Assembly: GCA_024220525.1 (NCBI GenBank)
Contig: JAMYWO010000329.1
Coordinates: 19,459-40,001, forward strand
Direction of reading: 5' to 3'
From: Cochliopodium minus
Taxonomy: Eukaryota > Discosea > Himatismenida > Cochliopodiidae
Length of the DNA: 20,543 nt
Below the pieces are notes generated by a model. It searched no databases and had not been told where the DNA came from. It was given only the letters and a program-made list of their open reading frames with translations. Both the position numbers and the translations under genes were made by a program. Positions 3,462-20,459 of the stretch are shown here, piece by piece (position 1 is the first letter of the stretch; every line of letters begins with the position of its first letter).

Positions 3462-6400
3462 TTAATTATTGGTTGTGGATTGAGTTCTTTTGCTATTGAC
3501 ACTCTCAAACTCATCAACCCAAGACTCCTTCTCCTGTTGATCAGACAAATATATTACAAGCAACTTGCCTTTAGAGTGGGAAAGGGCGATGGCGTTCTCA
3601 ATCAAGGACTTCTCCATCTCGGTGATCTTCTTGCCAAGGGCCTGCTCAATCTCCTTGGAATCGGAAATAAACTTGCAATCACTAAGAAGAATCTGGGTTT
3701 TTAATTTGTAGATGTATTTGCCAACTTGTTCGACAGATTGCGATTCCTCGGTGAGCAAAAACATATCGGAAATCAAAAAGGCTTTGTAGCTCTTCTTCAA
3801 AGATTTGCGTTTCTCAGTGGTAATACAAATGATGGTGCCCTCTTTCTCGATACGACGATGATGTTCGATGATATCCTTGGGAGAGGGATCGATAGACTCA
3901 ACCAACTTTCTGAACTTTCTGTGCTTCTCAAACTCACGATTCCAATCCTCCACTTCGAGCCAGACAGATCTGAGTAACTTGATGGCGTTATCTATCAAAG
4001 GATAATCTTCGTGATCAGACTTGGTAGCTCTCAACAAATCCTCGTAGAGGGACATCACTCTTTTGATGTACTCGCCCGGGCAATCCAAAAAGTGTTGGAA
4101 CTGTCTTCCGCTGCTTTCTTCGAGTTGAGAAAGCTTCAACAAAAGATTTGAAAAGCTGGTGTTGTTTTTGTGAACGTAGTAGGCTGCTTTGAAAGTGGCA
4201 TGCTTACGGATGAGCAACACATCAACGTTGGAAATGTATTTTGCAATTTTGTTGATCTCCTCTCCAATTTTCCTCGAGTAGAAGTACCCTTGGGTCCCCT
4301 TGTCATAAAGTTCATCGCAAAATCTTTTATGTCTGGTGAAAAAGTCCAAGTAGTTGTCCCTCATCTCTCTGAAGATGTTGTCCTTAACCACGAGTTTTTG
4401 TTTGGTCTTTTGGAGTTTCTTTTCTTCTTTAGTAGGAGAAACGAGAGATGCATCCAACCATTTTCTAGCAAAGACGATTACGTCCAACAACAAAGTCTCT
4501 TCGCAATTAACAATTTCATTGATGATCAACAATCTCCATTTGTCACGTTGTTCAGGATACAAAGAATCCCAAGGGATTTGCGTCATTCTCTTTCTCTCTG
4601 CATCATAATGAATACTTTTGAGCTCTCTTTGGCCTTGGTTCTTTCTTTCTTCAATCCATTGCTCATTCATGTTTTGTCTGAACCCCTTGGCTTTGATCTC
4701 TTCTTCGGTGGGTGCACGCAAAATAATCTTGATGATGGCAGGTTCATAGCTGTTGTCAAGATTGATAGAATGAGTTTCTTGAGGAGGGAGGTTGGTGTTC
4801 AAAGAAGGAGGAGCCAAAGTGTTGAATGAAGGGCTCGAGTTGAAAAAAGAGGAATTGTCATTAACTATTGGAGGAGGGATGTTGCTTGGGTTAGAAAGAG
4901 GAGGAGGAATGGTGGTAGGCATTTGGGTGTTGGTCAAAGGAGGAGGAATGTTGGTAGTCAAACTTCCGCTAAGTGGGGGAGGGATGTTGCTTGGGTTAGA
5001 AAGAGGAGGAGGGATGGTGGTAGGAATTTGGCTGTTAGACAAAGGAGGGGGAATGTTGTTACTGATACTGTTGTTTGTTTGTAAAATTTTGGGTGATTCA
5101 GTTTTCACAGAAAGTGGCTGAAAACTAAAATTGGTAGAAAGGGACGGAGGTGCAACTAAAGTGGATCTTCTGGTCAACGTTTGAGGAGGAGGCAGATCTA
5201 TGAACTCTGTGGAAGTGTTAAGAGAAGGGTGGATGGTAGAAGAAGGAGGGCGGGAATCATCAAACAAATTGGTCTTTGTCTCTTGAGTGCTCTTTTGAGG
5301 AATAGGAGGCACAGGAGGAAGCTTCTTCTCAGTACTTTGTGGTTCGTTCATTTTCATCTTTGAGAAATTGAAGTCACTGTCATCGTCAAAATTAAAGATG
5401 CTTGGTCCTTCTGTTGATACGGGTGTTTTGGTTCTGTTGGGAAGAGGAGGAGGGAGAGGAAGGCTCCCAGAAGAACTTGGGGGTGTAGGTGTTTTGCTTG
5501 GAAACAAAGAGTTCAAAGATCCCAAAAAGTTGTTTTGATCATTGTTGTGGGGTGGATGTTGATCGTTGTTGTTTCTTTGGTTAGAAGAATGGTTGCTGTT
5601 ATGGTGGGAAGAATCATGTTCATCATCAAAGTTGAAGATGTTAGGCCCCTCTGTAGTTGTTTTGTTATTTCTGTTGGGAAGAGGAGGAGCAGTAGTATTG
5701 AAAGGGTTAAAGTTAGTTTTTGGTGTGATGTCAGATTTATGCTCATCTGTCTGGAAAGGATTGAAAGGATTAGATCTATTGTTATTGGAAAAAGGGTTGC
5801 TGGATGGTTGGTGAGGCAAAAGAACAGGTGTTTGATTACCACCACTCTTGATGTTTTCCTGTTGTTCCAAAAGCAATTTGTTTTGGTGTTCCACTTCCTT
5901 AGACTTTCTCTCCAACTCTTTGATGTACTCCATCTGTCTCTCCCTTTCCTCCTTCTCTTTTTGTTTGAGGAGCTTCTTTTCTTCCTTTCTCTTTTTTTCT
6001 TCCTCCAACTTTTCTTCGTTCTCTTCGAGAATTTGTTTCCTGATCTTCTCTTCCATAGCTTTTCTCTCCAAAAGAATCTTTTGTCTGGTTTCTTCTTCGA
6101 TTCTCTTCTTCATCTCTTCATATTGTTTCTGTCTGTCCTCCTCGGTTATTTTTCTAGGGGACTTTACATTCTTGTGATGATCCTCTTCTTTCGTATTGGA
6201 CACTTCTGTGTTACTCGAGTGTTGTCTATTAGGAACTGGAGGAAAATTGGTCAAATTAAAGTTGCTGTTATTTCCAGAGGAAAAGCTGTTTTGTTGGTGA
6301 TTGTTTTGTTGATTATTTAGGAAGCTAACTTGAAGGTTGCTTTGTTGAAAAGTATTTTGTTGATGATTGTTTTGCTGATGATTGCTTTGTTGAAAGAGAA

Positions 6401-8225
6401 AATTCAGATTGTTTTGTTGGTCATGGTTGTTTTGTTGAAAGCTGTTTTGAGAAAAGGTGTTTTGTTGCTTCTGTCTTTCCTCTTCCTCGTGTCTTTGTTT
6501 GATAAGAAGTTGAAGCTTTTGGTGTTCCTCCTCTTCTTGTTGGTCCTTGAGTCTTTGCTGATTGACGAGGTCGTCTTCTTGTTTTTGTTTCATCATTTGA
6601 AGTCTCTTTCTGCTGTTCTCTTGTTCTTGCTGTTTCAGGTACTGTTCCCTGATGATGTTGTCCTCTCTCTGCAACTCTTGTTGTTGTTGTTGCAATAACT
6701 GTTGTCTTTTCAGCTCCTCTTGGTTCTGTTGCTGTTGCATCTGTCTTTTGATCTCTTCTTGTTGTTGCTGCAACATTTGTTGTCTTTTGATTTCTTCTTG
6801 TTGTTGTAATAACTGTTGTCTCAACATCTCCTCTTGGTTCTGTTGCAATAACTGTTGTCTCAAATTTTCTTCTTGCTGTTGCTGTTGCATCTGTCTTTTA
6901 ATCTCTTCTTGTTGTTGTTGTTGCAACATTTGTTGTCTTCTCATTTCTTCCTGCTGTTGCTGCAATAACTGTTGTCTCAACATCTCCTCTTGGTTCTGTT
7001 GTTGTTGCATCTGTCTTTTGATCTCTTCTTGTTGTTGAAGAAGCATTTGTTGTCTTTTGATTTCTTCTTGTTGTTGTAATTGTTGCCTTTTCATCTCCTC
7101 TTGTTGCTGCAACATTTGCTGTCTTTTCATCTCTTCTTGTTGTTGCTGCAACATTTGTTGTCTTCTCATTTCTTCCTGCTGTTGCTGCAATAACTGTTGT
7201 CTCAACATCTCCTCTTGTTGTTGTTGTTGCATCTTTCTTTTTATCTCCTCTTGTTGTTGAAGAAGCATTTGTTGCCTCTTCATTTCTTCTTGTTGTTGTT
7301 GCAACATTTGCTGTCTTTTCATCTCTTCTTGTTGCTTTTGCTGCAATAACTGTTGTCTCAACATCTCCTCTTGTTGTTGTTGTTGCATCTGTCTTTTTAT
7401 CTCTTCCTGTTGGAGCATTTGTTGTCTCTTCATTTCTTCTTGTTGTTGCTGTAACATTTGTTGTCTTTTCATCTCTTCTTGTTGCTGTTGCAACATTTGT
7501 TGCCTCTTCATTTCTTCTTGTTGTTGCTGTAACATTTGCTGTCTTTTCATCTCTTCTTGTTGTTGTTGCAACATTTGTTGCCTCTTCATTTCTTCTTGTT
7601 GCTGCAACATTTGTTGTCTTCTCATTTCTTCTTGTTGTTGTTGAAGAAGCATCTGTCTTTTGATTTCTTCTTGTTGTTGAAGAAGCATCTGTTGTCTCTT
7701 CATTTCTTCTTGTTGCTGTTGCAACATTTGTTGCCTCTTCATTTCTTCTTGTTCTTTCTGTAACATTTGTTGTCTTTTCATCTCTTCTTGTTGTTGTTGT
7801 AACATTTGTTGTCTCTTCATCTCTTCTTGTTGAAGGATCATCTGTTGTTGTAATAATTGTTGTTGTAATAATTGTTGTTGATTCATTTGAAGATTGTATT
7901 GATTCAAATTCATATTATTGTTAAATTGATTCATATTATTCATATTATTTTGATTGAATTGCATATTATTTTGAAATTGATTCATATTATTTTGAGGATT
8001 ATTATTATTAAATGGTTGTATGGTTTGCATTCCATTATTTCCAAAATAGTTATTTGGTTGCATCAATCCATTATTTAAATTCGAATTATTATTTGGTTGC
8101 ATCATTCCATTATTTCCAAAATTATTCGATTGTCCTCCACTAAAATCTATATCCATTAACTGATCCATAATAGATACCTTTGGCTTTGTATTAGTATTTT
8201 CATTTTTCTTATTCCTTGTTGACAT
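3462..8225 (-). CDS. RhoGEF (DH-PH) with giant Gln-rich repeat and endocytic motifs, 1587 aa
   Basis: One uninterrupted exon. Residues 1-115 are Asn/Gln-rich with LMDID (23-27), which fits a clathrin-box pattern. Residues about 120-520 are roughly thirty 12-13-residue repeats of the type QEEMKRQQMLQQQ, predicted to be coiled coil. A second, charged coiled coil spans about 690-795. Residues 805-845 hold four NPF motifs (SNPFS, SNPFN, FNPFQ, FNPFN). A duplicated PPLPNR...TEGPxIFNFDD unit lies near 850-870 and 930-950, followed by Pro-rich IPPPLSN repeats (about 1055-1145). The DH domain runs about 1222-1430: CR1 contains NEIVNCEETLLLDVIVFARK and CR3 contains LYEDLLRATKSDHEDYPL. A PH domain with ICITTEKRKSLKKSYKAFLI and a C-terminal KESWVDEF helix fills 1442-1580. 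Role by family: activation of Rho/Rac GTPases. The endocytic or phagocytic link is inferred from the motifs. It sits 162 bp downstream of the DysF gene start, same strand. Confidence 0.92.
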   Translation of the reverse strand: MSTRNKKNENTNTKPKVSIMDQLMDIDFSGGQSNNFGNNGMMQPNNNSNLNNGLMQPNNYFGNNGMQTIQPFNNNNPQNNMNQFQNNMQFNQNNMNNMNQFNNNMNLNQYNLQMNQQQLLQQQLLQQQMILQQEEMKRQQMLQQQQEEMKRQQMLQKEQEEMKRQQMLQQQQEEMKRQQMLLQQQEEIKRQMLLQQQQEEMRRQQMLQQQEEMKRQQMLQQQQEEMKRQQMLQQQQEEMKRQQMLQQQQEEMKRQQMLQQQQEEMKRQQMLQQEEIKRQMQQQQQEEMLRQQLLQQKQQEEMKRQQMLQQQQEEMKRQQMLLQQQEEIKRKMQQQQQEEMLRQQLLQQQQEEMRRQQMLQQQQEEMKRQQMLQQQEEMKRQQLQQQEEIKRQQMLLQQQEEIKRQMQQQQNQEEMLRQQLLQQQQEEMRRQQMLQQQQQEEIKRQMQQQQQEENLRQQLLQQNQEEMLRQQLLQQQEEIKRQQMLQQQQEEIKRQMQQQQNQEELKRQQLLQQQQQELQREDNIIREQYLKQQEQENSRKRLQMMKQKQEDDLVNQQRLKDQQEEEEHQKLQLLIKQRHEEEERQKQQNTFSQNSFQQNNHDQQNNLNFLFQQSNHQQNNHQQNTFQQSNLQVSFLNNQQNNHQQNSFSSGNNSNFNLTNFPPVPNRQHSSNTEVSNTKEEDHHKNVKSPRKITEEDRQKQYEEMKKRIEEETRQKILLERKAMEEKIRKQILEENEEKLEEEKKRKEEKKLLKQKEKEERERQMEYIKELERKSKEVEHQNKLLLEQQENIKSGGNQTPVLLPHQPSSNPFSNNNRSNPFNPFQTDEHKSDITPKTNFNPFNTTAPPLPNRNNKTTTEGPNIFNFDDEHDSSHHNSNHSSNQRNNNDQHPPHNNDQNNFLGSLNSLFPSKTPTPPSSSGSLPLPPPLPNRTKTPVSTEGPSIFNFDDDSDFNFSKMKMNEPQSTEKKLPPVPPIPQKSTQETKTNLFDDSRPPSSTIHPSLNTSTEFIDLPPPQTLTRRSTLVAPPSLSTNFSFQPLSVKTESPKILQTNNSISNNIPPPLSNSQIPTTIPPPLSNPSNIPPPLSGSLTTNIPPPLTNTQMPTTIPPPLSNPSNIPPPIVNDNSSFFNSSPSFNTLAPPSLNTNLPPQETHSINLDNSYEPAIIKIILRAPTEEEIKAKGFRQNMNEQWIEERKNQGQRELKSIHYDAERKRMTQIPWDSLYPEQRDKWRLLIINEIVNCEETLLLDVIVFARKWLDASLVSPTKEEKKLQKTKQKLVVKDNIFREMRDNYLDFFTRHKRFCDELYDKGTQGYFYSRKIGEEINKIAKYISNVDVLLIRKHATFKAAYYVHKNNTSFSNLLLKLSQLEESSGRQFQHFLDCPGEYIKRVMSLYEDLLRATKSDHEDYPLIDNAIKLLRSVWLEVEDWNREFEKHRKFRKLVESIDPSPKDIIEHHRRIEKEGTIICITTEKRKSLKKSYKAFLISDMFLLTEESQSVEQVGKYIYKLKTQILLSDCKFISDSKEIEQALGKKITEMEKSLIENAIALSHSKGKLLVIYLSDQQEKESWVDEFESVNSKRTQSTTNN
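6690..7860 (-). repeat. Coding tandem repeat, about 36-39 bp unit, inside the RhoGEF
   Basis: Roughly thirty imperfect units encode Q/E/E/M/K/R/Q/Q/M/L/Q/Q patterns. The + strand shows TTGTTGTTGC and TCTTTTCATCTCTTCTTG motifs in alternation. Unit length varies by whole codons through gain or loss of CAA/CAG. The frame is open throughout about 1.2 kb, which argues for purifying selection on the frame. Confidence 0.9.
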
Positions 8226-8418
8226 ATCTTTCTAGAAAACAGAAAATATTTATATAACTCAATTTTTTTATTTTATTGTTAAATTTTAAAATAAATCTTG
8301 TTTATCCATTTGTGATTCTTTAAATTGTGAAAGAGGTATATTTGTTTGTTAAATTATTTTTTTAAATAGTATGTGTTTATAAAATTAAAAAAAAAGGTTT
8401 CATTGAAAAAGCTTAGCA
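8226..8418. promoter_or_regulatory. Divergent promoter region, RhoGEF / THOC7
   Basis: 193 bp between the RhoGEF start (8225, minus) and the THOC7 start (8419, plus). A/T-rich with T and A runs and a TATTTATATAA stretch at about 8249. Both genes start here and no other gene intervenes, so it must hold both promoters. No specific factor site was recognised. Confidence 0.55.
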
Positions 8419-11369: not shown

Positions 11370-12445
11370 ATGATGATTGATAAGAAAGATTCTAAAATAG
11401 ATGCAAAGATAAGCTCTGTTTTGATCACAGGATGTTCAAGAGGGATTGGATTTGAATTAACAAAACAATTATTGGAAAATGAAAAAATAGAAATCATTTT
11501 TTCGACAGCAAGAAAGATAAATAAAAGTCTTGAATCACTCAAAGAGAAATTCAATGATCGGTAGGATATTTCAAATTGAAACATCAAATAATTAATTTCA
11601 AAAAAGATTAATATTATTGGAGATGGATGTCACAAAAATAGATACAATCAAAAAAGCATTTGAATATATAAAAGATAAAGTTGAATCTATAGATCTTTTA
11701 ATAAATAATGCAGGTATTTATCTGAATTCTCAATCATTACATATATTTATATTAATCCAACAAAATTGATTAACAAAAAATAGGAATAGTTGGAGAATCA
11801 ATATACAATAAACCCACAGAAATAGATTCAGAAGAAATGATGAAAGTATTCGAAACAAATGTGTGCGGAGTTTTAAATGTTACCAACACATTTTTTCCTC
11901 TCTTCAATAAAACAAAGAAAACACTTGTAGTGAACATGACATCGAATTCTGCAAGCATATCCCAGAATCATATCGCCAAAATCGTGCCATATCGTTGTTC
12001 AAAGACGGCCTTGAATATGCTTACAAAAAACTATGCAATAGAATTGGGAAAAGTTGCCACTTTTGTAGCAATGCACCCCGGGTGGTTAAAAACAGGTAAA
12101 TTATTAAACAATAAAGGATAAATTTTGGGATAAAAAAATTCAAACAAGATCATATTTTAAAATGTTTCTCATTGATCATTGATATAGTATCTCATGTTAT
12201 CATAAAAATCTTTTAATTAAATTCTTATAAAAAAATTTAAAAATAAAAAATAGAAATGGGCAATAGGTAAAAAAAAATTCAAAAACAAAACAAAACATCA
12301 ACTAAACATATTTTACAGCGGACATGAAGAGGCTCCGTTGGATGTCGAAGAGGGTGTGAGGAATGTGGTCCTACAGATTCAAAAGTTGGACGAGCGAAGC
12401 AATGGTTGTTACATCGATTTGTACGGGGAAGCAATAGATTGGTAA
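11370..12445 (+). CDS. Short-chain dehydrogenase/reductase, 249 aa, five exons
   Basis: NAD(P)-dependent oxidoreductase of the classical SDR fold, closest by memory to C-factor-like SDRs; the substrate is unknown. Exons: 11370-11560, 11607-11713, 11784-12095, 12254-12266 (13 nt), 12319-12445, total 750 nt, phase kept at every GT..AG junction. Cofactor motif TGCSRGIG at 20-27, LLINNAG ending at 100, ETNVCG with Asn125, catalytic Ser near 153-157 (NMTSNSAS), Tyr169-x3-Lys173 (PYRCSK). After HPGWLKT the 13-nt exon supplies EMGN, restoring the family W-[VL]-x-T-[DE]-M-G loop, then SGHEEAPLDVEEGV and the usual ending YIDLYGEAIDW. There is no signal peptide or membrane helix, so it is probably soluble. 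An in-frame extension from 11292 exists, but it lacks family support. Confidence 0.9.
12254..12266 (+). other. 13-nt microexon of the dehydrogenase
   Basis: AAATGGGCAATAG lies between acceptor AAAAATAG (ending 12253) and donor GTAAAA (12267). Upstream exon phase 1 plus 13 nt gives phase 2, which the last exon needs. Without it the last exon reads into a stop or the wrong frame. With it the product gains E-M-G-N at the conserved loop. Confidence 0.85.
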
Positions 12446-12530: not shown

Positions 12531-13805
12531 TTATTTGACTACAAAGTTGAAATAAATGTCTTTAAATGGTTCATCTATTAAAGTATAGTGCCACCACTCA
12601 TCAATATATGGCCTATAACCATTTTTAGCCATTATTTCTTGCAAGAAATTTCTTTTTTCTACGAAAGAATAGTCAACCACCGTAGTGTTGTGATGAGAAG
12701 CTTCCCCAAAGTAGTCGAAAGAACAACCCATGTCTTCACTATTGTCATCAAGTAAGAAGATGACATGTCCATTCAATAAGACCCTTTCTTTCATAATAAT
12801 TGGCCCGATTTTTTCGCCTGTTTTTATGATGGATAGATCTACTGTACTTCCCCTGCTGTGCCCTGACTTACGTGCTAGAGTTAGGAAAAAAGTAAAAAAA
12901 AAAATTAAAAAATGAAATTTAATTATAAAACAACAAAATTTTTTTAATGGAATGATTAAACAATATATATATTTTAAATATATTTAATGTATTATTTTTT
13001 TTTTTTTAATATACCTATGTAACCTAATTTTTTTTTATTCGAAAATTTTGAAAATTTTTTCAAGAGTTTTTACCATCTATCACCACTAAAAAATTTTTCA
13101 AATGAAATATTAGTTTTATGAATAATGTGGAAAATAAAAATAAAAATAAAATTTTAAAATTTTTTTAAATAAAAATAATAAACAGTTTGATTTATTTTGG
13201 TAGGGATAATATTTAGATTTTTCTTTTTGATCATTGCTGTCATCCACCCAGTACATAAACATGTCGACTGATCTCTGAGGTCTGTAAGCATCATAAACAA
13301 CCAGGCTGTAATTATAATTACTTAACTCTTTTTGTACATTCGAAAGTGCTTGTGCTGCTTTTTTTGTTAATATCACTTTATTTGCCTTTTAAAAAAAATA
13401 ATAAAAAATAATAATAATAAATAATAAAAAATTAATTTTTTTTTGATTTAAAATTATCTAGATAATTTTTATATAATGGGATATCATGTCACATATCTAT
13501 CATTAAACCTCATATCCGTTAATTCTGCGTCCCATAAAATTTTCATTCGTATAATATCTCAAATTTTGAATTATGGTGGGATCTATATCTTTCAAATAAA
13601 CAAATCCATCTGCCATTGATTCCTAATTTTGGAAAAAATATAGCGAATTGATAAATTTGGAAAGACATAATTTGTATTTTACGTCATTTGAATTGATGGC
13701 CATTATAAGCAAAATCAATAAAAATATGAAAACAATGAATAATAGAATGAAAATAATCCTATTTCTTGATATCTTTTTTGTATCTCCTTCCAAATTTTCA
13801 TCCAT
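12531..13805 (-). CDS. VanX-type D-Ala-D-Ala dipeptidase, membrane-anchored, 267 aa
   Basis: Zinc dipeptidase of peptidase family M15D, which cleaves D-Ala-D-Ala. Exons: 13805-13683, 13622-13509, 13385-13184, 13085-13074 (12 nt), 13023-13015 (9 nt), 12874-12531, total 804 nt, with every junction in phase. Residues 16-38 are one hydrophobic helix after a short polar N-terminus, suggesting a signal anchor with the enzyme on the lumenal or outer side. Then GFVYLKDIDPTIIQNLRYYT, NFMGRRINGYEANKVIL and VVYDAYRPQ (Arg114, equivalent of VanX Arg71). Zinc ligands are His159 and Asp166 in SGHSRGSTVDL and His249 in EWWH, with catalytic Glu246. The spacings equal VanX (116/123/181/184), and the ending DEPFKDIYFNFVVK parallels VanX. 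All catalytic residues are present. A bacterial origin by transfer is likely, with introns gained since. Probable job: digestion of cell-wall dipeptides from prey. Confidence 0.92.
13015..13023 (-). other. 9-nt microexon of the VanX-like gene
   Basis: GTTACATAG on the minus strand, acceptor AATTAG before it and donor GTATAT after it. It encodes the core of G-Y-I-A, the residues that precede the KSGHSRG zinc motif in VanX enzymes. Phase 1 in, phase 1 out. Confidence 0.85.
13074..13085 (-). other. 12-nt microexon of the VanX-like gene
   Basis: TGGTGATAGATG on the minus strand, acceptor TTTTTTAG before it and donor GTAAAA after it. Joined to the preceding exon (..KSN + T) it reads L-V-I-D, then G-Y-I from the next microexon. 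This gives YYPYQNKSNLVIDGYIARKS, the expected VanX spacing. It is only 50 nt away from the 9-nt exon. Confidence 0.82.
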
Positions 13806-13941: not shown

Positions 13942-15419
13942 ATGGTATTGCCAAAATTAGGTATGATATTCACTTAAACTTTTTTTATCTAGAAAATTAT
14001 TAACCTTCAAAAAGTGAGGTGTTGTATTGTTGAATTTGTCGGGACTTTTTTTTTGGTATTGGTCATCTCTTTGACAGGCACTCAACCCAATGTGGAGGGT
14101 ACATAATTCTTTTGATTTATAATTTATTAACTGATGCTGATAACTGATTTATAAAAAGAATTGGGATTCAGTCCATTGGCCGTGTAATTTAAATTATACT
14201 TCTCCATTAGATAATTCTAAATTTAAAACCAATATCATAGTGGAATTTCTTTGATTTGTTTGGGTTAGAGATATTTATATTCGAAAAATTATCGATCAAT
14301 ATTTATAACGAATAAAATTAGTGTATATGGGATTTCATATCTCGAAGGGTAAAATCAAATATTTTTAAATGGAAATAAAAATGATCGAAATAACTTTTTT
14401 TTCAGCACATTATAATCCAATAGTGGTAAAAGAAGAATCATTCTTTTATGTGATCAATTTGAATTCAAATTTTTTTTAATTTAAACAGACAATCGCTGCA
14501 GCCATAAATGGAAAGATTGACACGAAAATATTTGTCTCATTTATTTTGTGTCAAATGAGCGGATCTTTTTTGGCAGCACTAACATCAACGGGGATCACAG
14601 GGTCTTCAGTTTTGCCCTATCCTGTCAAGGGAGTAGGTGTAGGGGTATTGTGTGAAGGGTTGTTTAGTTTCCTTCTCATTTCAGTGATTTTAAATTTAGT
14701 TGTAAGTTTTTGATTTTAATATTTTTTTTGAATTATTTTTTTTTTGAATTAATTTTTTTTTTTTGGATTATTTTTTTTTCCAGGATCCTGCGAACAAAAG
14801 TAACTAATTTTTTTTCATTTTTTGAAAGTTTTCGAATTGAACTTTTTCTTTAAAGGAAATTGGGCATATGGGATTGGTTTTGGGTTTGCAGTTTTAGTGG
14901 GAGCATGTAAAACGATTTTTTATTTTTATTTTACATTTTTAATTTTTTATTTTTATAACAAAATTTTTGTTTTTTTTTTCATTTTTTGGTTAGATTTTCT
15001 ATTTTTTATTTTTTATTTTTTAGACTGTGTGGGAAACATATCAGGAGCTATGTATACTAAATTTTTTATTTATTACTATTTTTTTATTTATTTTTGTCTT
15101 TTAAGGTTTAATCCAGCGGCTGCAACAGGTCTCATTGCATGTCACAGTATTTTTACAAATAACAGAGGGTGGAAAATCATTTGGGTCTATTATGTAGGTC
15201 CTATCACTGGTTCAGCTCTAGGTAAATTTTTTTTTTTAAATTTTTTATTTTTTTCATTAATTATTATTTTGAAAGATATCTTTTTTATTTTTAATATCTT
15301 ACTTATTTTTATTTTTAAAATTTTTAATTTTAATACCCATTCTTTTAGCTTGCTTATATTACAGGGCCACTACCAATCCAGTTAGCGAATTCGAAAGCAA
15401 CTATGATTTCGTCAACTGA
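13942..15419 (+). CDS. Aquaporin (MIP family), 230 aa, twelve exons
   Basis: Membrane channel for water or small solutes. Exons: 13942-13944, 13993-14098, 14159-14183, 14241-14257, 14322-14348, 14406-14425, 14489-14701, 14784-14799, 14856-14906, 15024-15051, 15106-15221, 15349-15419, total 693 nt, all in phase with GT..AG ends. TM1 is VEFVGTFFLVLVISL. TM2 and the first half-helix read LAVGISLILYMGFHISKGAH and YNPIV, so the first NPA motif is NPI (64-66). The second half-helix is GNISGAMFNPAAATGLI, with an intact NPA (171-173). The ar/R-filter arginine that normally follows NPA is Ala174. TM6 is IIWVYYVGPITGSALACLYY. The start is the least sure part: exon 1 would contribute only the ATG before a GTATTG donor, because exon 2 has an in-frame TAG directly upstream. 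The gene is divergent from the VanX-like gene. Confidence 0.88.
14241..14257 (+). other. 17-nt microexon of the aquaporin
   Basis: TGGAATTTCTTTGATTT between acceptor ATATCATAG and donor GTTTGG. It converts phase 2 to phase 1 and encodes the middle of TM2 (V-G-I-S-L-I-L). Without it the TYM-GFH exon is in the wrong frame. Confidence 0.8.
14784..14799 (+). other. 16-nt microexon of the aquaporin
   Basis: GATCCTGCGAACAAAA between acceptor TTTTTCCAG and donor GTAACT. It encodes DPANK plus the first base of Arg, the loop before the TM5 segment NWAYGIGFGFAVLVGA, and shifts phase 0 to phase 1 as the next exon requires. Confidence 0.82.
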
Positions 15420-15832: not shown

Positions 15833-17472
15833 ATGATGAATTTGGATCGTTTAGATTTACAGTCTGATTTATTGGTGATTAAAATTGAAGGATGTAAAGA
15901 TTTGGCTTCAAAGGATTTCAATGGTTTAAGTGTAATTTTCAAAAAATAAATTATTTTACTCTTCAATAATTCAAGATATGGTCAAAGAAAATATTAAATA
16001 TTATCTTTGAATTACTTCATAATTATGATTATCATTCGTTTTTTAAATAATATTCATTTAATATTCTGATTAATTTCAAAGGATCCCTTCTGTCAAATTA
16101 AAGTTTACAGCCAACTAAAGAAAAGGACCAAAGTAATAAAGAAAAAGTAAATACAATACATATAACATTGTAAGCTCTTTCATTTTTTTTTAAAAATTTG
16201 TTTTCAGCTTGAATCCACATTGGGAAGAAACATTTTCATTCTCCAGAGATGCTTATTTCAAACAATTTCTCGAACAAAAAGAAGCAATAATAATAGATGT
16301 GTTCGATAAAGATATTATTGGAAAAGATTTTTTGGGAAGGTGTTATTTTTGATTATTTTTTTTAAATATATTTTTAAATTTATTTTGTTTTTTTAATTTT
16401 GTTTTACTTTTTTTTCCAAAAAAAAAATTAATCAAAGTTTATTAAAATCAGGGTGACAGTATCAGGAGAAGAGGTTTAGATTAATTTTTTTTAAAAATAA
16501 TTTTTAAATATGAAAAAATAATATTAATTTTATGTTAAAAGGTTGCTTCTTGTATAACAGAGCAGAGTTTTAACCTCAAATTGATGCCCAGAGAGGGAAA
16601 AAAGGACAAAAATATTAAAGGAGAAATAAGCTTTAAAGTTTCTTACAAAAACACCAATTTTGTCTATTATGAAGATCTAGATTTTTACTGTAAAGAGTAT
16701 AATACACAAAGGAACGTATTTGTCAACATGTTCAATAAATATGCTGTAAACAAAAAAAATTAAAATTATTCAATTTAAAAATTCATTTATTCAAAAATTT
16801 TTTAGTTTGATTTATTTTTGTTGTTTTAAATATTTTTTTTTAATATTTATAATTTAATTCACATTTCTTCTCTAAAGGGAGCAATGGAAAAAAATCTTAT
16901 GATGAAAAAGTTCAATCAATTCATGAGTTCAGTCGATGGACACGTAAAATATGACAGATCATATAAAGAATTGAAGCCTTTAATTTATCTCAAGAAATCC
17001 ATTCATTACTTATGGGACCCTCTCCTTTCGGGGCATTTCGTAGACAGGAATCTTGTGATCGAAAATGAGAAGGGTTCTCTTTTTTATGGGTATTTGCAAG
17101 AACATTTGTTCAATAAAATAGACTTGTAAAAATTTTTTTTTTATTTTTTTTTTAATTTTTTTTTTTTTATTACTTCAATTTAAATTTTTTTTTTATTTTT
17201 TTAAAATTATATTTCATTTTTTTTTTCATTCATTTTTTTTTTTTGTTAGTGACTTCAAAAAGACCTGTGAACTTTTGTTTCTTTACAAAGAAGAAAAAAT
17301 GAGGGCCTCTCTTGTGGAATACCTGACGATTATGCTTTTCCACAGTGATAACGACAAACTCAATGAAGAAGCATTTGAATTTTTCAGCTTGTTTCCATAT
17401 TACTCTGTTTTAAGTAATGAGATTGTCCAAAAAGAAAGTCACGTAACCAAAAATTTTCTTCTTGTCCAATAA
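15833..17472 (+). CDS. C2-domain protein, unrecognised C-terminal region, 330 aa or longer
   Basis: Exons: 15833-15931, 16082-16146, 16208-16339, 16452-16473 (22 nt), 16542-16745, 16878-17125, 17250-17472, all GT..AG and in phase. The N-terminal C2 domain (about residues 8-140) is clear: LLVIKIEGCKDLASKDFNGL, SDPFCQIKVYS, NLNPHWEETFSFS, IIIDVFDKDIIGKDFLGR. Asp residues in SDPF and DVFDKD are present, so Ca2+-dependent phospholipid binding is plausible. The rest contains YYEDLDFYCKEYNTQRNVF, KPLIYLKKSIHYLWDPLLSG and FKKTCELLFLYKEEK. It is soluble and mostly helical-looking, and I do not recognise it. A stop at 17470-17472 (overlapping AATAAA) may be real. Alternatively a donor at 17464 (CTT|GTCCAA) joins, phase 0, to an acceptor at 17711 and makes one 508-residue protein ending in the Gly-rich tail. 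Confidence 0.75.
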
Positions 17473-17717: not shown

Positions 17718-18559
17718 ATGGAACAATTTAATAAACGTTCTGAATTGGAAATCAAACCCTTGATTGTAAAAAAATTCAAATCAGCGTTTCAAAAGAGTAT
17801 CGGGCTTAATCTGAGCGAACTCAACAAAGCCAAGTATATCGAATTTGTCATGGACACCAACAAAGTGAAGGTGTTCGCTGAAATAGTCTCTCAAAAAATC
17901 TCATTTCCTGATTTTTATGAGAAAGCCAAACAAATCATGATAGAAGAAAGAGAAAAAATTTTTGAGGAAGCAAAAAAACAACAATTACAAGTTATTTTTT
18001 TTTATTTTTTTATTTTTTCTTTGTTAAATTTTTATATTTTTTTTTTATTTTTTTATTTTTTTTTTACTAGATTAATTGTAGAAACCAACAACACAGTCAC
18101 TATGATGGAGAAGTTGGCTATTTTCCAAGTGACAATGACACAAACAGTCATACCGGAGGAAATGAAAACACCAGTGACACTGTTTTTGGAGGTTTTTTTT
18201 TTAAATTTTTTATTTTATTGTTTTTTTTATTGTTTAAAAAATTTTAAGGAGATGATGGTGGAGGAGATTATGGAGGGGATGGAGGTAAAATTTTTTTTTT
18301 TTTCGAATTTCAATAAATCATTTCAACTTTTTGTAGGGGATTATGGAGGGGATGGTGGCGGAGATTATGGAGGGGATGGAGGAGGTAAAATTAAAATTTT
18401 TTTTTTCAAATTTCAATAAATCATTTCAACTTTTTGTAGGAGATTATGGAGGGGATGGTGGAGATGGTGGAGGTAAAAATTATTCTTAAAATTTGTTTTG
18501 TTTTTTGCAATTTTTGAATTATTTATTTCAAAGGAGATGGAGGAGGGGGAGGAGATTGA
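17718..18559 (+). CDS. Helical segment plus Gly/Asp/Tyr-rich tail (own gene or end of the C2 gene)
   Basis: Exons: 17718-17990 (or from 17712 if spliced), 18071-18191, 18249-18284, 18337-18384, 18440-18472, 18534-18559; GT..AG, in phase, TGA at 18557-18559, 178 aa from the ATG. The first exon is charged and helical (FNKRSELEIKPLIVKKFKSA, YEKAKQIMIEEREKIFEEAK). The second is polar (NQQHSHYDGEVGYFPSDN). The remaining exons encode only GDYGGDGG-type repeats. No family recognised. The exon starts after a good acceptor (ATATAG at 17711) and CCT CTC ATG is open in frame 0, so continuation from the C2 gene is about as likely as a separate start at 17718. The Gly-rich exons and their introns arose by tandem duplication. 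Confidence 0.6.
18249..18559 (+). repeat. Tandemly duplicated exon-intron units (Gly-rich tail)
   Basis: The 3' half of the intron plus acceptor is identical over 32 bp at 18306-18337 and 18409-18440, an offset of exactly 103 bp. The exon motif GATTATGGAGGGGATGG recurs at least four times. Donor contexts GGAG|GTAAAA are the same in three introns. Confidence 0.85.
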
Positions 18560-18898: not shown

Positions 18899-20418
18899 AT
18901 GGTTCATATAATCTATTGGATAGTCCTCGCCTATTTGATATCATTATTGATCTTCTTCCTCAAATTATATTTCTCAAGAAAACTTCTTCCCATCCCCAAA
19001 TTCAACATGCCAGGGGTGGAAGATCCATGCTTGATGCATAAAGATCTTGGTAAGATATAAAATGAAGAAGATGATACGATAGATTATCCAATATATGACA
19101 ACATATACGCATCCATAAATTCACTTAGCTGTATATTTTAACACCCAATAAAATAATATAGAGGGGAAAAATTTCGTGGCGAAGAGGGATCCCAGATCCA
19201 AATTCAAAGATAACAAACAACAAGGTGGATTAAGAACATTCACTGAGATGCCATTTTACGTGCAGGGTAATTAAAATTATATAATTAATAAGACTTGTCC
19301 AAAATTTTGTTAGCGGATATTTAATTTATGACTGGATTCCTTTTTAAAAAAATTTTTTTTTTGTTTAATTTTTTTTTAAATGAAATATAGGAGTAAGATT
19401 ATCGTTTGATGAAAAATCAAACTTTAAAAATTAAATTTCTTAAAAAATTAAATTCCTTAGAATCCTTGGATTGTGGATGGTTACAGAGCAAATTTTTCTA
19501 TCAAGAAGGCTCTCGTTTCTATGTTCCAAGTAAAAATAATTTATAAAATTTTTTTTGTTTTTAAAAAATATTTTTTTAAAATAAATCTTCAAGATTCACA
19601 ATGAAAGTTGGAATGTTTGGTCACGTGAGTTTTTTTTATTTTTTCATTTTTTTTAAATTGTTTTATTTTTTATTTTTTATTTTTTTTTTTATTTTTTTTT
19701 TTTTTTTTAATTTTATTTTTTATTTTTTATTTTATTTTTTATTTTTTATTTTATTTTTTATTTTTTATTTTATTTTTTATTTTTTATTTAATAGACGTTT
19801 TTGGGTTTCTATTTTTCTTTGTTTTAATGATAAAGAACATCTATACCGCTTTTGCTTACAATATCACGTACAACTACACAGAAATAACTATGCTTATTTT
19901 CCTAGTTGGTAATAAAACAAATCAAAATATAAAAAATTTAAAAATAATTAATTAAAAAAATAAAAATAATTGATAAAAAAATAAATCAAAAAAAAAACAA
20001 TAAAAAAATAAAATTACAATTAAAATTAAATTAAAATTAATATTAATATTAATATTAAAATAAAAATTAAAATTAAAATTAAAATTAAAATTAAAATTAA
20101 AATTAAAATTAAAATTAAAATTAAAATTAATATTAATATTAAAATTTTTTTTTGACATTTTTAGGAGCTCAAGTTTTATTCTTCGTTTCTTCTTTATTTC
20201 ATCTCTTGTCATGTATGACCCACAGCATCTATTCCATTACTGCAAAATTAGGTAAAAAAAAAATCAAAAAAAAATAAAAAATCAAAAAAATAAAAAATAA
20301 AATAAAATTAAAAATTTAAAAAAATTAAATTCTGCAGATTATACTGGAATATCCGTTTTGATCATCACTTCTTTTTTTCCTGCAATGAAACACTTTTTCA
20401 CTTGTAATCCCAACTGGG
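18899..20418 (+). CDS. PAQR / adiponectin-receptor-like membrane protein (3' partial)
   Basis: Seven-helix HlyIII/PAQR superfamily; members are receptors or ceramidase-like zinc hydrolases. Exons: 18899-19049, 19162-19266, candidate 19391-19392, 19461-19529, 19594-19624, 19795-19908, 20165-20251, 20338-20418; a donor GTAAAG at 20419 leads out of the window. The N-terminal helix YWIVLAYLISLLIFFLKLYF is extra to the core. Family blocks: FTEMPFYVQ, NPWIVDGYRANFS, IHNESWNVWSHVFGFLFFF, SSLFHLLSCMTHSIYS (S-x3-H zinc-type motif), KLDYTGISVLIITSFFPA (conserved Asp). The final HxxxH motif is beyond the end. The junction between MPFYVQG and NPW keeps frame only with a 2-nt exon (GA, codon GGA) or by using an earlier GTGCAG donor at 19260, which would drop three residues from a spacing conserved with AdipoR1. 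Confidence 0.85.
19625..19794. repeat. (T)nA-rich microsatellite intron of the PAQR gene
   Basis: 170-nt intron consisting almost wholly of T4-T12 runs separated by single A, with TTTATTTTTTATTTTA repeating several times near its 3' half. Acceptor TTTAATAG at 19794. Confidence 0.85.
19919..20150. repeat. (TTAAAA)n and (TTAATA)n microsatellite in a PAQR intron
   Basis: The 256-nt intron 19909-20164 holds a run of about twelve AAAATT units around 20056-20130, flanked by shorter TTAATATTAA stretches. The open frame on the minus strand here (Asn/Phe repeats) is a by-product of this repeat. Confidence 0.85.
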
Positions 20419-20459
20419 GTAAAGAATAAAAAACTTATTGTTCGATTTTTCATTTTCAT

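Follow-up and report, generated by a model that had tools for sequence, protein, structure and literature searches.

The VanX-like (peptidase M15) gene lies on the minus strand of a 20,543-nucleotide stretch of a Cochliopodium minus contig (JAMYWO010000329.1), hereafter the window. It comprises six exons, and its coding sequence of 804 nt, stop codon included, encodes 267 amino acids and contains no internal stop (Table 1). The five introns are all of the GT-AG type, with lengths of 60, 123, 98, 50 and 140 nt, and introns 3 to 5 are all in phase 1. A preliminary description of this DNA had placed two microexons of 12 and 9 nt in the gene, separated by a 50-nt intron, with GT..AG ends on the three introns around them, phases 1, 1, 1 and an 804-nt coding sequence without internal stop. 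Each of these elements was found at the positions proposed. The hydrophobic segment encoded by exon 1 is a probable type II membrane anchor.

Table 1. Exons and introns of the VanX-like gene and short exons of neighbouring genes, in window coordinates.
Feature	Position	Strand	Description
Exon 1, VanX-like gene	13683..13805	-	123 nt; start codon and hydrophobic segment
Exon 2, VanX-like gene	13509..13622	-	114 nt; peptidase M15 domain begins here
Exon 3, VanX-like gene	13184..13385	-	202 nt; DAYRPQ arginine motif; translation ends YYPYQNKSN
Intron 3	13086..13183	-	98 nt; weak donor GTTTATT; acceptor TTTTTTAG
Microexon 1	13074..13085	-	12 nt, TGGTGATAGATG; codes for most of L-V-I-D-G; phase 1 to 1
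Intron 4, separating the microexons	13024..13073	-	50 nt; GTAAAA..TTAG
Microexon 2	13015..13023	-	9 nt, GTTACATAG; rest of G, Y-I, first base of A; phase 1 to 1
Intron 5	12875..13014	-	140 nt; GTATAT..CTCTAG
Exon 6, VanX-like gene	12531..12874	-	344 nt; HSRGSTVD and DEWWHY (predicted zinc ligands, catalytic Glu); stop codon
13-nt microexon, short-chain dehydrogenase gene	12254..12266	+	skipping would shift the frame
Exons of short-chain dehydrogenase gene	11373-11560, 11607-11713, 11784-12095, 12254-12266, 12319-12445	+	13-nt exon needed
Run of four short exons, aquaporin gene	14159..14425	+	25, 23, 27, 20 nt
Further short exons, aquaporin gene (13942-15419)	14784-14799, 15024-15051	+	16 nt, 28 nt
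Short exon, C2-domain gene	16452..16473	+	22 nt

The neighbours that could be given a family encode a short-chain dehydrogenase, an aquaporin, a protein tyrosine phosphatase, a C2 protein and an HlyIII/PAQR protein; two further frames had no family, and no van genes were found among the neighbours scanned in the window. By eye, positions 3462-8231 of the minus strand form a single open frame of 1589 aa, in which a long Q/E-rich repeat region is followed by an apparent RhoGEF-type end. At 18250-18555, a glycine-rich gene carries a unit of exon plus intron (GDYGGDGG..) in tandem, with near-identical introns, likewise as judged by eye. The HlyIII/PAQR-family membrane protein gene at 18899-20420 (plus strand, Pfam 73.5 bits) has several small exons, the borders of which were drawn by eye.

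The predicted protein matched the Pfam M15 model (PF01427) with 124 bits (E = 8.8e-36), the curated cut-off being 27 bits. When the complete genome (44.65 Mb in 598 contigs, AT-rich in the stretches sampled) was searched with this model, two matches were obtained, both of them exons of the VanX-like gene, which points to a single locus. One gene with an Fe-hydrogenase domain was likewise recovered from this genome (E of 0.001 or less); read as the Nar1 type, it speaks weakly against Anaeramoeba. Aligning the protein to VanX, as the preliminary description had suggested, gave an E-value of 1.8e-40 with PDB 1r44 and 37% identity to the VanX chain, and the alignment was gapless across the segment LVIDGYIA (MISKGYVA in VanX). 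The scores with the NCBI equivalog models for VanX (NF033115) and for DdpX-type enzymes (PRK10178) were 192.1 and 80.8, below the respective cut-offs of 320 and 176. The VanX identity put forward at the outset was thus upheld as far as the M15 family, but not as a VanX equivalog. The active-site columns hold R114, H159, D166, E246 and H249, and the same residues occupy them in all 79 bacterial relatives described below. We take the active-site residues of VanX to be R71, H116, D123, E181 and H184; in the 1r44 chain, positions 116 and 123 are occupied by the His and Asp of the HSRG motif.

The relatives were gathered in one scan of genome contigs with patterns located outside the microexon segment, and the best 80 of 418 confirmed relatives were kept. 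The profile was built from 79 of these, all bacterial, with one (L028) left out. In viral contigs, 20 stretches matched a pattern and none was confirmed. The columns aligned with the microexon segment are strongly conserved in the 79 relatives: the first position is M, L, V or I in 79/79, the glycine is present in 79/79, the tyrosine in 77/79, a V or I in 78/79 and the alanine in 73/79. Scored with an HMM of the 79 relatives alone, the protein with both microexons reached 260.7 bits, compared with 249.4 for a variant with a 3-nt first microexon, 245.7 with only the 9-nt exon, 243.1 with only the 12-nt exon and 234.5 with neither. The preference was the same for an HMM of the ten nearer relatives (310.0 bits with both vs 284.7 with none) and for one of the other 69 (204.5 vs 179.9), and in BLAST comparisons all 79 relatives favoured the protein with both microexons. 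This bore out the proposal that the two exons rebuild LVIDGYIA ahead of the zinc-binding HSRG.

These data bear directly on a competing transcript, in which position 13184 is joined directly to 12874; the microexons would then be matches due to chance, and seven residues would be absent from the protein. Such a join is in frame, and the Pfam model even scores it slightly higher (125.1 vs 123.8 bits; 127.2 with the 12-nt exon alone and 126.1 with the 9-nt exon alone). It is, however, 26 bits worse with the 79-relative HMM, it is preferred by none of the 79 relatives and it loses the glycine that is invariant among them. We take the profile of the 79 relatives to be a better judge than the broad Pfam M15 model, and the disagreement between the two stands.

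How readily a model of this quality could arise by chance was addressed by enumerating all GT-AG chains between the YYP codon and the D of HSRGSTVD (interval 13183-12875). Introns had to be at least 25 nt long, internal exons no longer than 60 nt, and donors had to lie 12 or more bases inside the scored stretch. When a maximum of two internal exons was allowed, 13 in-frame models without stop were obtained, and again 13 with up to three. Among these 13, the two-microexon model had the best score with the 79-relative profile (63.2), the next scoring 50.4 and the direct join 33.7. The protist protein had zero weight in this profile, yet it was present when the underlying alignment was made; HMMs aligned without it agreed with the enumeration profile. 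In dinucleotide shuffles that retained the terminal GT and AG, 0 of 20,000 sequences reached 63.2 (mean 37.5, maximum 61.6, 31 at 55 or above), and none of 2,000 did so when all 309 bases were shuffled. The former is the fairer test, because many of the full-interval shuffles had lost the donor. No shuffle provided an equally good chance model. We regard the direct join as the main transcript as extremely improbable, and the model with both microexons was retained.

A purpose-written spliced aligner (BLOSUM62, no prior on exon length, splice matrices from 34 introns outside the VanX-like gene) was run unguided on the region 13950-12400 with each of the 79 relatives. The 34 reference introns were homology-inferred and partly hand-picked, 23 from chaperonin genes and 11 from the aquaporin gene; those of the chaperonin genes were chosen by hand among the candidates for 24 gaps in seven genes, and the first-ranked candidate was not always used. 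The 9-nt exon was recovered with 79/79 relatives. For the 12-nt exon, recovery was complete (79/79) when the splice weight was 0 or 0.5, and it was 66/79 at weight 1.

As a control, the aligner was run on the SAHH gene, in which every internal exon exceeded 30 nt at three weights (exons of 206, 120, 354, 175 and 531 nt), and on four dehydrogenase paralogues, with the same outcome when the weight was 0 or 0.5. In these paralogues the aligner also returned a 17-nt leading fragment (L117 and L118) and, at weight 1, a 1-nt exon at the end of L119, which we have treated as an end artefact. Various short exons appeared with shuffled proteins (n = 5, scores 81-104) and at wrong-strand loci (scores 54-120), and for this reason a short exon was counted only when it stood in a high-scoring alignment.

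At full splice weight, exon 6 was split by a 66-nt GC-AG intron (12804-12739) with nine of 13 relatives, among the models listed. We have rejected this intron. The window protein and its four nearest relatives (L003-L006) have in common a loop of 31-32 residues, where 74 of the 79 relatives have nine; the relatives that split exon 6 are without the loop, and L003-L006, in which it is coding, do not split it. The loop was read as coding because L003-L006 carry it as unsplit coding sequence.

The splice sites around the microexons differ in strength. Introns 4 and 5 have donors that score 8.8 and exceed 28 of the 34 reference donors. For the donor at 13183 the score is -2.3, lower than that of any reference donor; there is no alternative GT between 13182 and 13087, and none of the models listed avoids this donor. 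The C2 gene and intron 2 of the VanX-like gene also have donors of the form GTTTA.

The acceptor of the 12-nt exon scores -3.6, above only one of the 34 reference acceptors. An alternative is that the first microexon consists of only 3 nt (13076-13074), entered through the AG at 13078-13077, with a protein reading NKSN-Y-GYIA instead of NKSNLVIDGYIA. The acceptor of this form scores 4.4, and at weight 1 it was chosen in the unguided alignment with 13 of the 79 relatives, including the four nearest. It was chosen with none of them at weights 0 and 0.5, though, it costs 11.3 HMM bits and it leaves a 3-residue gap relative to most relatives; moreover, the AG of the 12-nt exon comes first, after a T-run. 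We therefore consider the 3-nt form very unlikely. Regarding the borders given by the preliminary description, those of microexon 2 are supported, while the acceptor of microexon 1 is less certain.

Skipping 12, 9 or 21 nt leaves the frame intact and open, with at most seven residues lost. Either microexon could be dropped without a frameshift because the last three introns are all in phase 1. The earlier expectation that missing the microexons would truncate or shift the enzyme was thus not borne out, since seven residues are simply dropped in frame.

The same property could make the microexons targets of alternative splicing, in which in-frame skipping would take away residues next to the zinc ligand, yield a full-length inactive isoform and act as an on/off switch. 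Both lengths are multiples of three, phase 1 is kept throughout, the skip forms are open and a weak donor precedes the microexon pair. This donor does not favour skipping, however, because it serves every isoform. In addition, skipping of the 13-nt exon in the neighbouring dehydrogenase gene would always shift the frame, a hint that inclusion of tiny exons is routine in this cell. We judge such a switch unlikely and prefer constitutive inclusion of both microexons.

Very short exons were also predicted in some other genes of the genome. With its 13-nt exon, the dehydrogenase reads KTEMGNSGHEEAPLDV where PDB 1sny has KTDMGGSSAPLDV, and the exon was recovered by unguided alignment with the 1sny protein. 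Four paralogues on another contig (L116-L119, contig C88) have TDMGNS or TEMGNI at this place. In L116 the 13-base stretch lies within one exon, without an intron; the other three each have one intron within the stretch, after 8 of the 13 bases, and at neither of the intron positions of the window dehydrogenase. A reading in which, of the two introns flanking the 13-nt exon, just the second is present in the paralogues was discarded, because the intron of three of them matches neither position and the fourth has none. Since the paralogues encode the peptide with different introns or none, it is confirmed by its kin, and the intron positions appear to have turned over. This is a sign of turnover in which gain and loss are indistinguishable.

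The aquaporin gene dropped from 91.9 to 28.5 Pfam bits without its six exons of 16-28 nt (and its first residues). An aquaporin-4 chain recovered these short exons, the 16-nt one only at full weight, in an alignment whose splice matrix includes introns of the same gene. A second aquaporin gene (L083, contig C103) was aligned with the first and showed exons of 27, 8, 25, 23 and 16 nt whichever of the weights 0, 0.5 and 1 was used; the score at 0.5 was 348. When the aquaporin-4 chain served as the query, the exons of 25, 23 and 16 nt were present at every weight and those of 27 and 8 nt at weight 1 only. The model of L083 at 1230-1320 varied with the splice weight, between 12 + 8 nt and a single exon of 20 nt, and neither form is put forward here. 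The two aquaporins have few intron positions in common. At position 2184 of L083 we have noted a candidate 1-nt exon, G (ttag/G/gtaaaa), that would complete a GCA codon after NPAP; it was returned with two query proteins at three splice weights each, by an aligner that can make end artefacts.

Ordinary exons were seen in the SAHH gene, the best matches to ribosomal L3 and actin lay in single frames, and the Pfam matches of the chaperonin genes were mostly contiguous. The best hit of the SAHH protein was PDB 6uk3, probably from Acanthamoeba, and for ribosomal protein L3 the probable Dictyostelium entry 5an9 stood low among the 60 of 65 matches listed. At one chaperonin gap (L110, about 15 profile positions) no candidate for a simple intron was found. 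In this small and partly position-chosen sample, short exons thus seem common in some genes and not in all. The microexons of the VanX-like gene fit the gene architecture of this genome, because other genes also seem to need very short exons.

The origin of the gene was approached with a quick tree of 80 rows, in which 36 of 77 inner branches were open and the query branch had a length of 1.2. The protein grouped with two Babeliales genes, one Pelagibacter-labelled gene and one from a Puniceicoccales MAG (SH-aLRT 94, not starred). That group was nested in a set of 11 rows (99, starred), apart from a set of 69 rows from Actinomycetota and Bacillota, which presumably includes genera known for glycopeptide production. 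Babeliales are associates of amoebae. Such an association is consistent with the title of PMC4378268. These four MAG-derived M15 genes (L003-L006) are 44-45% identical to the window protein and have the 31-32-residue loop at the same place, but, unlike the window gene, they are uninterrupted reading frames. At the loop position of L003-L006, a Pseudolabrys-labelled MAG M15 gene (L017) carries an unlike insertion of 33 residues. We infer that the gene may have been acquired from a protist-associated bacterium, a direction of transfer that is not proved, with MAG labels that may be wrong. The tree supports, and does not prove, a bacterial origin, and a gain of introns after the transfer would rest on it.

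The window protein resembles VanX and DdpX (PDB 1r44; NF033115, PRK10178) in its family, its active-site residues and the GY(V/I)A..HSRGS segment, and differs from them in a loop longer by 22 residues, an N-terminal hydrophobic segment and five introns. If coding microexons are internal exons of 15 nt or less, lying between GT-AG introns and restoring frame and homology, both exons are of this class. Adjacent microexons are already a known kind, since they have been described in plants, and microexons have been sought in a unicellular relative of animals. According to the parts of the article consulted, which deals with 45 conserved clusters, those of adjacent 5-nt and 12-nt microexons were placed in plant peptidase M1 genes, RT-PCR confirmed one such adjacent pair of 5 and 12 nt in rice mRNA, and the annotation lacked most of the 2,398 small microexons in plants (PMC8831610, Nat Commun 2022). 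For the unicellular relative of animals, the part of the source consulted describes a search method that included microexons of 3-15 nt (PMC4739763).

The pair reported here is like the plant cases in being two back-to-back exons of 15 nt or less. Whereas those, in the parts consulted, have RNA support and positions conserved across species (PMC8831610), the present pair occurs in a protist and in a bacterial-type gene, has lengths that are multiples of three and is supported by homology. Genes of bacterial origin in Acrasis kona likewise had introns added after their transfer into an amoeba, and they also gained a signal peptide; the example in the portion consulted has two identically placed introns, with no microexons described there (PMC11589745). 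The published A. kona genome of 44.02 Mbp has introns of 9-95 bp, one or two in each gene that has any, a poor fit to the present genome. Among the matches listed in our literature search (titles and abstract openings), no microexons were described in a VanX-type gene. What is special here is the combination of a bacterial-type gene, three introns in 21 coding bases and neighbours rich in short exons.

Taken together, the comparisons of sequence favour, with a probability of roughly 0.87, a bacterial-type M15 dipeptidase-like protist gene in which 21 coding bases are interrupted by three introns, so that constitutive microexons of 12 and 9 nt are left between them. We regard it as a well-supported new case from a protist, with inclusion that is probably constitutive. 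Under this reading, the mature mRNA would contain both microexons, and their inclusion would restore the conserved stretch (M/L)xxxGY(V/I)A just ahead of the HSRG zinc-ligand motif. Most likely, the spliceosome would handle short exons as routine, and both microexons would be constitutive. The protein might be anchored by its N-terminal hydrophobic segment, or secreted, and the predicted enzyme may hydrolyse cell-wall dipeptides of the D-Ala-D-Ala type from bacteria that are eaten or live as symbionts.

Because an exon of 9-13 nt has too little room for the signals that normally define exons, each proven case tests how the spliceosome recognizes exons. In genes like this one, automatic annotation could lose conserved residues beside the catalytic site with no frame error as a warning. 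A bacterial-type gene is useful because its introns were probably gained after the gene had passed from a bacterium into the protist lineage; if so, three introns in 21 coding bases would show how microexons can arise. Tentatively, and as a possibility that we hold to be somewhat doubtful, genes that are peripheral or were acquired laterally may, in this lineage outside plants and animals, have been split into series of exons of 8-16 nt (possibly down to 1 nt) through repeated gain of introns or their turnover at ever new positions. If true, the spliceosome of this lineage would recognize exons of this size as routine, and many conserved motifs would escape the current annotation of such genomes.
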